A DNA stretch of 36,528 nt from Parcubacteria group bacterium GW2011_GWC1_36_108 (GTDB taxonomy: Bacteria > Patescibacteriota > Minisyncoccia > Moranbacterales > GWC2-37-73). This document shows, one piece after another, positions 383 to 33,945 of the stretch. The stretch is from positions 70,734-107,261 of the forward strand of contig LBRD01000003.1 of NCBI GenBank assembly GCA_000991245.1, read 5' to 3'. Below the pieces are notes generated by a model. That model saw nothing but the letters and a program-made list of their open reading frames with translations. It had not been told where the DNA came from and searched no databases. The position numbers and the translations under genes were made by a program. How positions within the stretch are numbered: position 1 is the first letter of the stretch; each line of letters starts with the position of its first letter.

Positions 383-510
383 ATTGCTAATTTAAATTTA
401 TACAAAATATTAACTATTAAACAGCTTGCTATGCACCGGCATCCACTCTAGTATTTATTCTTAAAGCATACCCGATTTCCCCACATCTTTCAAATTTATT
501 CCAAAATATT

Positions 511-556
511 ATCGGCAAACACTATCACGCTATCGAGTGTGATAGTGTTTGCCGAT
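511..556. repeat. Perfect palindrome, 18-bp arms (ATCGGCAAACACTATCAC / GTGATAGTGTTTGCCGAT), downstream of the trpR-like gene
   Basis: Direct reading; arms 511-528 and 539-556, 10-nt loop. Confidence 0.9.
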
Positions 557-573
557 TCTGGTTTGCATTAATA

Positions 574-1119
574 TTATTGTTGAACATGCGAGTTTGCAAG
601 GATTAGGCGCTTTAGTTTTTTGTAGATTGCTGGTTTTTCTTTCGCCTTGTCTAGCTTATCGATAACAACTTGCATCTGAGCCCTTTGTTTTTTATTGGCA
701 TTTGCTACGATATTTTCTAACAAAATATCCGGCCAATAATAGGCAGGAAATTTCTTTTTAAGAGAACTCCAATTTTCAAAATCGATGTTTGCATTATCTT
801 GCTTTGTTATTTTTTCCTTGGTTCGTGCGATTGCCTTTTGATATCCTTCCCCTGAAATTTGCAGCCATTCATGCACTCGTGCAATAGTTGTTGCACTGAC
901 CTTTAAGGTTTCCTCAATGTCCTGATAGGTTAAATCTTTAACTAGCAGTTCAGCAATTTTGAGACGCTTGGCAATCATTTCAGATTCCCTATAAGAAAGT
1001 AGATCACGTAAAAGCTCCGCGGCTTCGTTAGGATCTTTAATTTCAGCAATTGCCAGACAAAGCTGGTATAAAATTTTGTCTATTTCTTTTTTGGATAATT
1101 TTGAATAATATTTCGCCAT
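574..1119 (-). CDS. TrpR-like repressor, YerC/YecD family, with C-terminal extension
   Basis: MAKYYSKLSKKEIDKILYQLCLAIAEIKDPNEAAELLRDLLSYRESEMIAKRLKIAELLVKDLTYQDIEETLKVSATTIARVHEWLQ: TrpR/YerC helix-turn-helix signature. Confidence 0.85.
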   Translation of the reverse strand: MAKYYSKLSKKEIDKILYQLCLAIAEIKDPNEAAELLRDLLSYRESEMIAKRLKIAELLVKDLTYQDIEETLKVSATTIARVHEWLQISGEGYQKAIARTKEKITKQDNANIDFENWSSLKKKFPAYYWPDILLENIVANANKKQRAQMQVVIDKLDKAKEKPAIYKKLKRLILANSHVQQ

Positions 1120-1157
1120 AGATTTTTTTATTTTTATAATTTTGTTATTTTATTTTT

Positions 1158-1199
1158 CGGCAAGCACTATCACACTCGATAGTATGATAGTGCTTGCTA
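1158..1199. promoter_or_regulatory. Second copy (inverted orientation) of the 44-bp palindrome, immediately upstream of the trpR-like start codon; operator candidate
   Basis: GCAAGCACTATCA (1160-1172) / TGATAGTGCTTGC (1185-1197); nearly identical to the reverse complement of 511-556. Confidence 0.6.
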
Positions 1200-1240
1200 T
1201 ATTTTTGTAGATCTTATTTTTTTATTAATTTTAATATGCA

Positions 1241-1268
1241 TTGACAAATGTTTCAAAATTGATATTGT
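1241..1268 (+). promoter_or_regulatory. Sigma-70-like promoter: TTGACA, 16 bp, TATTGT
   Basis: Consensus -35 at 1241-1246 and TATTGT at 1263-1268, upstream of a structured non-coding stretch. Confidence 0.5.
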
Positions 1269-1274
1269 ATTAAT

Positions 1275-1497
1275 GAGCAAATGAAACGGGGCCTGAGGCG
1301 TGTATGGGTTCGAATCCCTACCCTGACTGGTTTAGATTACCAAGGAATGTGTAGGATAGCTGGGAGACTATGAAATGTTGGCGCCAGCCTCCATGGAGTC
1401 GTCCTTGAAATACCAGCCTTTCTCGGTTCGTTCAAAGGTCTATTCTGGTTCATTGCTGTCAATAAGAGGTGTTCGGAAATCCGGACACCTCTTTAAG
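1275..1497 (+). ncRNA. Candidate ncRNA or rRNA-derived fragment: T-arm-like hairpin, then 23S rRNA domain V (L1-stalk)-like segment, then intrinsic terminator
   Basis: 1302-1321 GTATGGGTTCGAATCCCTAC; 1348-1445 GTGTAGGATAGCTGGGAGACTATGAAATGTTGGCGCCAGCCTCCATGGAGTCGTCCTTGAAATACCAGCC resembles the E. coli 23S L1-stalk region recalled from memory; promoter and terminator flank it. Confidence 0.55.
1466..1491. terminator. Intrinsic terminator GAGGTGTTCGG-AAAT-CCGGACACCTC + T-rich tail
   Basis: 11-bp stem with one G-U pair, followed by TTTAAGTTTTATTT; sits between the + ncRNA candidate and a convergent CDS. Confidence 0.8.
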
Positions 1498-19999: not shown

Positions 20000-20857
20000 T
20001 TATGACTTTATAAGCTCAGCTTTAACAATCAGTCTTTTAAAGTTTGTGCCAAGTGGCCAACAAGTAGACAGAGTCAGCACTGGAGCATCAGGATTGGCGA
20101 ATATTTTTTCATCATCGGGCACAGTGACAAATTTTTCACTTATCTTGTATTTGTAAAAAATAGTCTTACCGTTTTGTTGAATGGTTTTTATATTAACAAT
20201 ATCCCCCACCTCCAAATCGTTAAGGTTTTTAAAGATATAATTGAAATCACCTTTAGCCCAAACATAGTTGCTAGAATGTCCTGAGATTATCACATTGCCT
20301 TTTTCTCCAGGGGCTGCTGATTTTGGAAAATGAGAAAGACCGCTTTCCAAATCTTTAAGCGATTGTTTTGCGTCTTCACTTTGTGACCAAATCATCGGAG
20401 CATCAACGGCAATTTTTTCAATCTTCACAAACACCAATGGTTTAGCATCCCCTGGTGCATCTGGATCATATCCATTAACAATTTCTTGCTTGTCAGAAAA
20501 TTTGTCGCTGTCGCTGTCAATATTGCTAGGATTAGTTCCGTGAATATATTCTTGATAGTTAAGCAAACCATCGCCATCAGAATCATTGTCGTACACATCC
20601 TTGCTAACAATATTATTTGCTTTTGCCCAAGCTGCAAAATCTGCCAAATTGATGCCATCAGCATTGGTTCTATTTATTAGATTTTCATCTTTTTGCAAAT
20701 CAATAACAGGCACTGGTTTCGACGTTGTTTTCACAACAGGTCTAAAATCAAGCAGGTTTACCACATAAAATCCCAATGCAAACAATGCCAAAAAAAGGAT
20801 GCTTAGCACAGCAACCTTTTTTAATTGAAATTTTGTTTTTTCAGATATATTAAACAT
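20000..20857 (-). CDS. Sortase with N-terminal TM anchor and Ca-binding (thrombospondin type 3/EF-hand-like) repeats
   Basis: DNDSDGDGLLNYQEYIHGTNPSNIDSDSDKFSDKQEIVNGYDPD; catalytic His in NVIISGHSS, Cys in LTLSTCWPLG, Arg in FKRLIVKAEL. Confidence 0.9.
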   Translation of the reverse strand: MFNISEKTKFQLKKVAVLSILFLALFALGFYVVNLLDFRPVVKTTSKPVPVIDLQKDENLINRTNADGINLADFAAWAKANNIVSKDVYDNDSDGDGLLNYQEYIHGTNPSNIDSDSDKFSDKQEIVNGYDPDAPGDAKPLVFVKIEKIAVDAPMIWSQSEDAKQSLKDLESGLSHFPKSAAPGEKGNVIISGHSSNYVWAKGDFNYIFKNLNDLEVGDIVNIKTIQQNGKTIFYKYKISEKFVTVPDDEKIFANPDAPVLTLSTCWPLGTNFKRLIVKAELIKS

Positions 20858-20884: not shown

Positions 20885-21478
20885 TTATCTTAACTGTGTG
20901 GCATATTTTCTCACTGCAACAGTTGCTCCAGCGATAGAAAGTGCAACCAATGCGATCAATCCTGCTGAAGAACTTCCTGTTGCTGGTAATCGTTTTTTGA
21001 TGACAATATTTTTCTTAACATTGCTGTGATAAGTTTTATTATCATTTGTTACGTAAGTAACTTTCTTGTGATAATCATATTTATCATCATCGTCTTTATC
21101 ATCTTTTTTGTTATCTTCATCCTCACGATCATCCCCGTCGTCATCGCCATCAACATCAACACTGACATTAGAAGATTGGCTAACTGTAGCGCTTCCTCCT
21201 GTGGCTGATGCTGATTGAGTTTGGCTTTGACTTTGAGCCTGACTCTGTGATTGCGATTGAGAAGAAGATTGTGACAAGCCTGAGTCTTGCGATTGGCTCT
21301 GAGATTGTGATTGACTTTGAGACTGAGATTGAGAAGCAGTAGCGCTTCCACCAGTAGCAGTCACATCATTAGTGTTTTTAATACTAATGTTAACATCTGC
21401 CATAACAAAACCAGCTGGAAGCATTATTGCTGCCAATATCACAAGTGACATTACTACTGATTTTGTTATGGTTTTCAT
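20885..21478 (-). CDS. LPATG-anchored secreted protein: signal peptide, SQ-rich region, Asp-rich region, sorting signal
   Basis: (SQ)n; DVDGDDDGDDREDEDNKKDDKDDDDKYD; KKRLPATGSSSAGLIALVALSIAGATVAVRKYATQLR. Confidence 0.85.
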   Translation of the reverse strand: MKTITKSVVMSLVILAAIMLPAGFVMADVNISIKNTNDVTATGGSATASQSQSQSQSQSQSQSQDSGLSQSSSQSQSQSQAQSQSQTQSASATGGSATVSQSSNVSVDVDGDDDGDDREDEDNKKDDKDDDDKYDYHKKVTYVTNDNKTYHSNVKKNIVIKKRLPATGSSSAGLIALVALSIAGATVAVRKYATQLR

Positions 21479-21501
21479 ATGTTTGTGAAATAAAAGAAAA
21501 A

Positions 21502-21987
21502 TTAAGCAAGTTTAGCTGAATATTTTTTTGCTCCAAGAACCACGCCAGCCAAAGCAACCATCATAACTGCAATAAGTCCGGTTGAACCAGCACCAGTTGC
21601 TGGAAGTTTTCTAACAATTCTTTTTCCGTTTTTATCATAATGAACTTTGTTTTTGTCATTATCAATATCAACGCTAATTTTTGAAGATTGACTAACAGTA
21701 GACACTCCACCAGCAGCTGATGCTGATTGAGATTGGCTTTGTGATGCAGACTGGCTCTCTGATTGAGATTGCTGAGAACCTGAATTTTGAGATTGGCTCT
21801 GTGATTGAGACTGACTTTGTCCTTGAGACTGAGAAGCAGTAGCTGTTCCACCTGTAGCAGTCACGTCGTTAGTGTTTTTAATGTCGATTTCAACATCAGC
21901 CAATGCAAGACCTGTGACAAAGATTCCTGCCACAATTATTGATGTCACTGTCATTTTTTTTGCAATAGCAAAGCTTTTCTTGTTCAT
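21502..21987 (-). CDS. LPATG-anchored secreted protein, SQ-rich paralogue
   Basis: DVEIDIKNTNDVTATGGTATASQSQGQSQSQ...RKLPATGAGSTGLIAVMMVALAGVVLGAKKYSAKLA. Confidence 0.85.
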   Translation of the reverse strand: MNKKSFAIAKKMTVTSIIVAGIFVTGLALADVEIDIKNTNDVTATGGTATASQSQGQSQSQSQSQSQNSGSQQSQSESQSASQSQSQSASAAGGVSTVSQSSKISVDIDNDKNKVHYDKNGKRIVRKLPATGAGSTGLIAVMMVALAGVVLGAKKYSAKLA

Positions 21988-31334: not shown

Positions 31335-33134
31335 TTAACGTTTGAGAACTGCGAGATAGGCTTCGGATGGGACTTGGACTTTTCCGATGTTGCGCATTTT
31401 CTTTTTCCCTTTCTTTTGCTTGTCGAGAAGCTTGTTTTTACGAGTCACATCGCCACCATAGAGTTTTGCAATCACGTCTTTGCGAAAGGGTCTAATTGTT
31501 TCACGCGCAATAATCTTGGCTCCAATTGAAGCTTGCACTGGAATCACAAAGTTTTGACGAGGAATAGCCTGGGCTAATTTTTCCACAATTCTTTTGCCTT
31601 CATTGTGAGCACGATCGCGAGGAACGATGCGACCAAGCGCTTCCACAATTTCGCCAGCCAAAAGAATGTCCAACTTAATCAAGTCTGATTTTCGATATCC
31701 AATAATATCATAGCTCATTGAGGCATAACCTGAGGAAACGCTTTTGAGATCATCGTGAAAATTCACAATAATATCCATCAGCGGAACTTCAAAGCTAAGC
31801 AAAATTCTTTCCAAATCAATATATTCAGTATTAAGATATGTGCTTCGCAGTGTGCCCATCAGTTCCATAATCGAACCCAAATAAACAGCCGGAGTGATGA
31901 TGTCCAATTTCACATACGGCTCAGAAATTTCTTCCAACTGCGAAGGGTCGGGCATTTGAGTGGCGCTGTATATTTTTTTGACAGCATCATCTCCACGCAA
32001 TTTTATTTCATATACCACACTTGGCGTGGTAATGGTTGGCGAAAAATCAAATTCCCTTTCCAAACGTTCGCGAATGATTTCCAAATGCAAGAGTCCCAAA
32101 AATCCACAACGAAATCCCTTTCCAAGAGCCAAGTTGCTTTCCGGTTCAAAAACAAAAGAAGCGTCATTGAGTTTCAATTTTTCCAAAGAATCGCGCATCG
32201 CATTATATGCATCGCCTTCAAGAGGATAAAGTCCTGCATATACCATCGGACGCACTTCTTTATATCCCTCAAGTGCTTGCACGTGAGTAGCATCACCTTC
32301 CACGGTAATCGTATCCCCCACACGACAAAACTCCACACTCTTAAGCCCTGTGGCGATATATCCAATGTCTCCCGCAGTCAGCATCTCTGTTGGCGAAAAT
32401 TCAGGCTTAAAATATCCAACTTCGATCACACCACTTTCTTTTTGCGTTGCCATCATTCGAATTTCATCATCGCGTTTGACGTGTCCGTCCACAATGCGCA
32501 CATATGCCAGCACACCTTTATAGGTGTCATATTTTGAATCGAAAATAAGAGCGCGCAGTGGTTTTTCACTATCCCCCCTCGGCGCTGGTATTTTTTCCAC
32601 AATTGCTTTTAAAATTCCATCAATACCGATTCCTGTTTTCCCAGAAGCTTCTAGAATTTCTTCTTCCTTGCAACCCAAAATATGGATGATTTCTTTTTTG
32701 GTTTTTTCCACATTGGCATTTGGCAAATCAACCTTGTTTACCACAGGGATAATCTCCAAATCTTGTTCAATGGCTAAATACAAATTTGAAAGTGTTTGTG
32801 CTTGCACACCTTTGGTAGCATCCACCAGCAGCACTGCGCCTTCCACGGCTGCCAATGAGCGCGACACTTCATAACCGAAATCCACGTGCCCCGGAGTGTC
32901 AATCAAATTCAAAACATAATCAACACCATCGTTTGAATAATTCATTCTGGCAGGTTGAAGCTTGATCGTGATTCCACGTTCTCTTTCTAAATCCATTTGA
33001 TCCAGCAACTGTTCTTTCATCCTGCGCATTTCCACGGTTTTTGTCACTTCTAAAAGACGGTCAGCCAAAGTCGACTTCCCGTGGTCAATGTGCGCGATTA
33101 TGGCAAAATTCCTAATTATTTGTTGATCTTTCAT
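31335..33134 (-). CDS. lepA: Elongation factor 4
   Basis: MKDQQIIRNFAIIAHIDHGKSTLADRLLEVTKTVEMRRMKEQLLDQMDLERERGITIKLQPARM; C-terminal KLYGGDVTRKNKLLDKQKKGKKKMRNIGKVQVPSEAYLAVLK. Confidence 0.97.
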   Translation of the reverse strand: MKDQQIIRNFAIIAHIDHGKSTLADRLLEVTKTVEMRRMKEQLLDQMDLERERGITIKLQPARMNYSNDGVDYVLNLIDTPGHVDFGYEVSRSLAAVEGAVLLVDATKGVQAQTLSNLYLAIEQDLEIIPVVNKVDLPNANVEKTKKEIIHILGCKEEEILEASGKTGIGIDGILKAIVEKIPAPRGDSEKPLRALIFDSKYDTYKGVLAYVRIVDGHVKRDDEIRMMATQKESGVIEVGYFKPEFSPTEMLTAGDIGYIATGLKSVEFCRVGDTITVEGDATHVQALEGYKEVRPMVYAGLYPLEGDAYNAMRDSLEKLKLNDASFVFEPESNLALGKGFRCGFLGLLHLEIIRERLEREFDFSPTITTPSVVYEIKLRGDDAVKKIYSATQMPDPSQLEEISEPYVKLDIITPAVYLGSIMELMGTLRSTYLNTEYIDLERILLSFEVPLMDIIVNFHDDLKSVSSGYASMSYDIIGYRKSDLIKLDILLAGEIVEALGRIVPRDRAHNEGKRIVEKLAQAIPRQNFVIPVQASIGAKIIARETIRPFRKDVIAKLYGGDVTRKNKLLDKQKKGKKKMRNIGKVQVPSEAYLAVLKR

Positions 33135-33945
33135 GTATATTTTTAATTGATTTTCTTGCATCACTCCTTCTTTTAGTATGCTTTAGATAAGGATACAACA
33201 CTTCTAGAATTTTTAAAAGGGATGATTTTTCACTCACCCTAACCCTCCAGAGATCTTTGTTATATTTATACCCCTTATTTTTATCATATATTTGACCACT
33301 ATAACCAATTTTTATTGGTTTTGGGCATTGAATATTGTTTCTTTTAAACCAATTATAAAACCAAAAAATAATATGCTTGTCATATGTGTCAATTTTGAAT
33401 CTAGCTCTATTATCATAAACACCAATGTTTGCCTCAGCATCAATATACCCAGCAGCAAAACTTGTCGAGTATTTTTCATTTTCATCTATCCAATCAGCAA
33501 CTACTAAAATTTTTGGCACTAAAAAATCAAAACTACCATTTAAAAAGCAATTAACAGAAAAAGCCTCGTTTTTACCTTTTGATATTGTAACCTTCCCATA
33601 TTTTCCAAATGTTCTTTTCAGTAAATTTGCTTGTGTGTCATTTGTTGTATTGCATCTTGCCACAATAACTTCTGAATGAGGGGCTGTTTTATAAACATTC
33701 AAATCACCAAGTCTAAAACCTATCATATAGGCTTTTTCCGTAAGATCTCCACTAAAATCTTTTTTCAAATAAGTGCTTTGGATTATTGATCTTGAAAGTG
33801 GTTCCATCCCATATTCCCTCATACGATTTAAAACAGTCTTAAAGCTACAACCGCAAATATCTCCAATTTTATACTTGGACTTTTTTTCTTTATAATAAAG
33901 TTTTTTTAATAACACTTTAGATATTGCTATTTTCTTTCTACTCAT
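33112..33945 (-). CDS. LAGLIDADG-type homing endonuclease with N-terminal HTH-like region, overlapping the lepA start
   Basis: Two motifs: AYMIGFRLGDLNV and SFAAGYIDAEANIGVY; 277 aa. Confidence 0.85.
   Translation of the reverse strand: MSRKKIAISKVLLKKLYYKEKKSKYKIGDICGCSFKTVLNRMREYGMEPLSRSIIQSTYLKKDFSGDLTEKAYMIGFRLGDLNVYKTAPHSEVIVARCNTTNDTQANLLKRTFGKYGKVTISKGKNEAFSVNCFLNGSFDFLVPKILVVADWIDENEKYSTSFAAGYIDAEANIGVYDNRARFKIDTYDKHIIFWFYNWFKRNNIQCPKPIKIGYSGQIYDKNKGYKYNKDLWRVRVSEKSSLLKILEVLYPYLKHTKRRSDARKSIKNIHERSTNN

Follow-up and report, generated by a model that had tools for sequence, protein, structure and literature searches.

The window, as we call the whole 36,528-nucleotide stretch of DNA that was analysed, is predicted to encode at 1270-1497 a free-standing RNA of about 220 nt, in which a T-arm is followed by a complete copy of the L1-stalk domain of 23S rRNA. 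The same arrangement was located outside 23S in ten further genomes, and we have little doubt that these sequences represent a real structured RNA family, undescribed until now and patchily distributed in a phylum of tiny-genome bacteria. The best overall reading is that the family is new, is probably trans-acting, and carries a working L1-stalk domain; its function is one that we infer. If true, tiny-genome bacteria would have turned the tRNA-gripping arm of the ribosome into an RNA of its own, and phages would apparently have done so independently. The unit in the window is composed as follows:

1214-1505, no strand assigned: inserted unit (about 286 bp), bounded by TTATTT on either side, delimited by alignment to relatives without the unit
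1241-1268, + strand: promoter TTGACA-16-TATTGT with TG before the -10 element, from a sequence scan (10/12 matches; equalled in 0/100 shuffles)
1276-1285, + strand: 5' arm of P1, a long-range closing helix (AGCAAATGAA), pairing with 1449-1457
1287-1291, + strand: possible acceptor-like 5' strand CGGGG, pairing with CCCTG at 1321-1325 (weak, p = 0.126)
1302-1321, + strand: T-arm hairpin GTATGGGTTCGAATCCCTAC with the canonical T-loop TTCGAAT, from the sequence; T-loop common to 11/11 members
1341-1425, + strand: L1-stalk domain in full, equivalent to H76-H78 and including its closing helix, 86.3 bits with covariance model R1
1449-1457, + strand: 3' arm of P1 (TTCATTGCT), immediately 5' of the terminator
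1464-1493, + strand: intrinsic terminator with a 13-bp stem, from a sequence scan

The sequence-only reading had described a promoter and a strong terminator bounding a T-arm-like hairpin and an L1-stalk-like segment, with no other rRNA around. All of this held: the two signals lie at 1241-1268 and 1464-1493 and the hairpin at 1302-1321, and the stalk was confirmed at 1347-1421, a stretch of 75 nt that is 86.7% identical to its E. coli 23S counterpart (E = 4e-16). Neither the rRNA models nor any other Rfam model matched the window at the gathering threshold, and the sole R1 match was the stalk at 1341-1425. The window's P1 (9 bp with one bulge) was equalled by 14.5% of shuffles and its stalk closing helix by 31%, so that neither is individually significant; the H78 stem contains two mismatches. 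The CCCTG at 1321-1325 corresponds to tRNA positions 66-70, and no CCA was present in the sequence after position 73. One copy of the unit was found in the host genome (assembly 1.05 Mb, 99% complete), where its neighbours are a TrpR-like gene and hypothetical genes; the gene for ribosomal protein L1, rplA, is present and normal on another contig.

Further members were sought with covariance models in about 800 genomes of the phylum in all. From their size, and from the mention of CPR relatives in the sequence-only reading, these genomes would belong to the Candidate Phyla Radiation. Model R1 was built from eight stand-alone stalks (that of the window and those of phages), contained no T-arm, and was run over 380 genomes of the phylum. 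Almost all of its matches were 23S; besides the window, two of them, L290 and L299, turned out to lie elsewhere. Although the model had no T-arm, a T-loop precedes GGGAG in both by exactly 54 nt, the distance seen in the window. A search with model R2, which comprises T-arm and stalk and was built from three sequences, covered 384 genomes of the class plus 49 from a second class and added L376, L383, L384, L385, L386, L387, L391, and L409. The ten further non-23S members are thus L290/L367, L299/L369, and these eight; two of the ten came from the model without a T-arm and eight from the model that included one. All 11 members belong to different families, judged by family codes, and some 130 other matches checked for context were 23S. 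The resulting prevalence, about 1-3% of genomes, is a lower bound, since R2 was built from three sequences only.

A third model of T-arm and stalk, R3, was built without the window and recovered it at 87.8 bits (E = 6.6e-23) over 1301-1429. Real 23S stalks scored nearly as high as the family (71-85 bits), so the R3 score does not separate the two, and membership rests on context and on the T-arm. As to context, flanking 23S sequence (H75/H79 and beyond) was absent upstream and downstream in 11/11 members. Rfam 15 gave no match at gathering score to the RNA in the bacterial members, its tRNA matches there being neighbouring genes, and ARAGORN detected no tRNA or tmRNA in the window, L290, or L299.

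The relatives in ten other families differ in sequence from the window RNA but preserve its fold. The T-loop is TTCRANT in all of them, at 52-56 nt from GGGAG, and the T-stem covaries in the ten members other than the window. Within the stalk, double changes were observed in 18 of the 24 pairs; 88.5% of cells were paired (63.9% when shuffled), and 75 cells carried double changes as compared to 24.5 when shuffled, with 0/500 shuffles as high. The covariation score was 0.716, against 0.218 in shuffles and no more than 0.21 in slid registers. With the window removed, the covariation of T-arm and stalk was still matched by 0/500 shuffles. The family also swaps a pair that is near-invariant in the ribosome. 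Of 245 distinct 23S stalks, 235 have U-A there and 2 to 3 have C-G, whereas 5/11 members have C-G. For the helix whose 23S forms are GGUGG/CCACC and GCUGG/CCAGC, the family has GGCGG/CCGCC, GACGG/CCGUC, and GAUGG/CCAUC as well.

Transcription signals and P1 were more variable. In the window and eight other members, scans placed a terminator after the stalk, that of L376 being far away (126 nt) and perhaps unrelated; in L387, inspection by eye shows a hairpin whose T-run is weak, and L367 has no clear terminator. Promoter-like sites better than nearly all shuffles lie upstream in six members. P1 is clear in four members (L369, L384, L386, and L409), where it stands well above shuffles; it is likely in L391 and weak in the window. 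In the members L412 (genome G199) and L413 (G139), the two arms of P1 have a CACAGA/TCTGTG core in common, and a pseudoknot with P1 would result from a 7-bp pairing of acceptor-like type (CCAGCAG/CTGCTGG and CTAGTGC/GCGCTGG). At tRNA-equivalent positions 69-72, YTGG is seen in most members. The earlier preference for a discrete RNA is supported by the ten genomes, in which the two parts lie outside 23S, covary strongly, and are mostly followed by a terminator, and also by the bare stalks of phages.

One argument for selection on the window RNA had to be abandoned. The sequence-only reading had taken GCTGG/CCAGC and GACT/AGTC, compared with E. coli, as compensatory changes; both turn up routinely in the 23S of other bacteria. 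Many genuine 23S genes carry GCUGG/CCAGC, and all of the 120 genome matches with this pair were 23S. Variants so common in 23S are by themselves no sign of selection here. A 23S gene was not found in the host assembly, and the 23S of a same-genus genome (L024) served for comparison. The window stalk is identical to it at only 49/70 positions (about 70%) and is therefore not a recent copy of the 23S of the host lineage. Among the 120 loci compared, the closest 23S was gammaproteobacterial (66/75).

That affinity would fit an origin as the degraded remains of a 23S and a tRNA gene, possibly taken up from a different bacterium, as would the two broken H78 pairs and the resemblance of the T-arm to the 3' part of tRNA-Ser with one base missing. 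Debris would not, however, be expected to combine a T-arm and a stalk at an equal distance, away from 23S and with compensated changes, in ten other families, nor to end at the boundaries of the stalk domain between a promoter and a terminator. The decayed remnant that had first been offered as an alternative is disfavoured by this recurrence, and we regard it as very improbable.

The history of the locus was reconstructed from relatives, whose loci were located with the neighbouring TrpR-like gene as anchor; four were collinear. Window positions 461-1219 and 1506-1913 align at 82% and 85% identity (82-86% over the flanks) to adjacent stretches of L067 (genome G004) that lie 9 nt apart, so that 1220-1505 is replaced by 9 nt in that genome. 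The unit is likewise absent at L068, L069, and L070 (genomes G003, G018, and G014), and R3 found no match in the four syntenic loci. TTATTT at 1214-1219 and 1500-1505 may be a 6-bp target duplication, or may be chance in AT-rich sequence. Judged from these alignments, insertion of a 286-bp cassette of promoter, RNA, and terminator is the simpler reading. BLAST of the unit found no copy in five same-genus genomes and, in 57 relatives and the 380 genomes of the phylum, nothing beyond itself except 23S or tRNA. The RNA is thus dispensable, given a close relative without the unit at the site and no BLAST copy in the five same-genus genomes. On both sides of the TrpR-like gene, at 514-552 and 1159-1197, lies a 38-bp palindromic repeat (GCAAGCACTATCACAC..TGATAGTGCTTGC), kept at the same places in L067; it is possibly a bidirectional terminator or a REP-like element.

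A precise insertion of 286 bp opposite four empty sites, possibly with a 6-bp duplication, is also what a small selfish or mobile RNA gene would leave, SINE-like or moron-like, that spreads or persists by means of its ribosome-derived parts. The patchy distribution of the family and the bare stalks in phages agree with such an element. We nevertheless hold it to be improbable: the host genome has a single copy, no terminal repeats were seen at the unit, the neighbours of the members are not shared, and the fold is strongly conserved across many families.

Viral contigs were searched by pattern scans, and stalks without other 23S were found in about six unrelated phage contexts (L089/L090/L091, L106/L108, L104/L110, L109, L238/L239, and L092, the last with its stalk at the contig end). 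Each phage record has one strong stalk copy, and no T-arm accompanies the phage stalks. The Rfam LSU_rRNA_bacteria model exceeded its cut-off only at the stalk in L104 and L106. The closing helices differ yet pair (AGGTTG/CAACCT, AGGTAG/CTACCT, AGAGCA/TGCTCT, and CAAGTG/CACTTG), most of them well above shuffles. Across the eight stand-alone stalks, window included, 84.4% of cells were paired, and double changes were seen in 40 cells versus 14.6 (0/500 shuffles as high). In L104 (4705-4811) and L110 (370-476) the stalk lies within a tRNA array, with a tRNA-Arg gene 40-60 nt after it; L238 and L239, from one phage group, have an identical stalk in place and a different small gene after each.

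Several viral candidates were rejected. The L034 match for GCTGG/CCAGC, L111-L117, L241, L243, L244, and L479 were chance matches or ordinary tRNA genes; in L094-L103, a T-arm followed by GTAGGATAG consisted of tRNA pairs; L242 looks like a chance hairpin; and matches among INPHARED cultured phages look like contaminating 23S. In bacterial 23S itself, a long insertion appears to break the gene 10-40 nt past the L1 stalk at L037, L039, L040, L049, L051, and L058; these insertions, in several genomes of the phylum, are perhaps introns.

What the RNA might do is suggested by its surroundings and by known systems. The neighbours of the members are unrelated housekeeping genes that differ from member to member, which makes action in trans most likely. 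L1 binds H76-H78 of 23S, and mRNA leaders resembling rRNA are known partners of ribosomal proteins. The mRNA operators through which uL1 regulates its own synthesis, in the rplK-rplA leader, likewise mimic the 23S site of L1 outside the ribosome and capture the protein (PMC10931766). Unlike them, the family is not beside rplA or rplK; its stalk head is complete where theirs is a minimal site, and a terminator comes after it, so that it would appear to be trans-acting. No R1-like L1 operator was found near rplA in the host. By analogy with these operators, the stalk would most likely bind L1 outside the ribosome and buffer or redirect free L1; we lean towards L1 binding, with some reserve, and a role as L1 decoy or regulator is plausible. 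Perhaps the RNA also binds a tRNA elbow. The phage stalks would act likewise on host L1, or else affect the following gene in cis.

The T-arm may dock on the elbow-binding face of the stalk, or may mimic or recruit tRNA. The paired T-loops of the L1 stalk stack on the tRNA elbow (PMC4810234, PMC5309774), and docking by the T-arm is something that we propose tentatively. A different emphasis would make the elbow grip the main function: the RNA would capture its own T-arm or tRNAs that are deacylated, and would serve to sense tRNA or would contain an internal E-site-like contact, with L1 incidental. The fixed spacing between T-loop and stalk suits such a grip, as does the use of paired T-loops to bind elbows by the L1 stalk, RNase P, and T-boxes alike (PMC4810234). 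So does the state of the stacking positions: the G2112-A2169 pair of E. coli stacks on the elbow (PMC5309774), and its equivalents are G and A in most members, and A and G in L367 and L384, where both bases changed together. Several members, however, have a UUCG-like or shortened H78 loop, the phage stalks do without a T-arm, and the acceptor-like helix is marginal across the set (17/500 shuffles as high), as a result of which a tRNA acceptor stem was rejected. We therefore think it unlikely that the grip is primary and L1 incidental, and prefer L1 binding. The two could be joined in an extra-ribosomal particle, a free version of the ribosomal E-site grip complete in itself, in which an L1-bound stalk clasps the elbow-like T-arm lying at a fixed distance in one and the same RNA. 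The particle would sense or control deacylated tRNA or free L1, and phages would carry stripped-down versions that take over the same protein; this would be a rather speculative construction. The RNA also makes the sensing by RNA of L1 levels or of deacylated tRNA outside the ribosome directly testable.

Other comparisons set the family apart. It shares sequence and fold with the L1 stalk of 23S (H76-H78) but has no other 23S, has its own transcription unit in the window, and has a T-arm in front. tmRNA and other RNAs with tRNA-like domains also contain a canonical T-arm in a non-tRNA molecule; unlike tmRNA, the family has no encoded CCA end or significant acceptor stem, and an L1 stalk follows the T-arm. 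T-box riboswitches and RNase P RNA grip elbows with paired T-loops outside the ribosome (PMC4810234), but the architecture of the family is different and has no Rfam match. GOLLD and ROOL, large non-coding RNAs tied to phages and reportedly to tRNA genes (PMC12286853), are unrelated to the phage stalks by Rfam. No paper on a free L1-stalk RNA was found in the literature searched, and neither Rfam 15 nor those papers yielded a trans-acting RNA gene that recurs from family to family and combines a whole mobile ribosome domain with a tRNA mimic.

Elsewhere in the window, an ORF at 33112-33945 on the - strand, adjoining lepA, has by eye the look of a LAGLIDADG homing endonuclease (MIGFRLGDLNV..., AAGYIDAEANIGV); it had no match in Pfam or NCBIfam. 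Two adjacent genes at 20885-21987 encode proteins with long Ser-Gln repeats and, by eye, a C-terminal LPATG-like motif, and a gene that appears sortase-like by eye lies beside them at 20000-20857.
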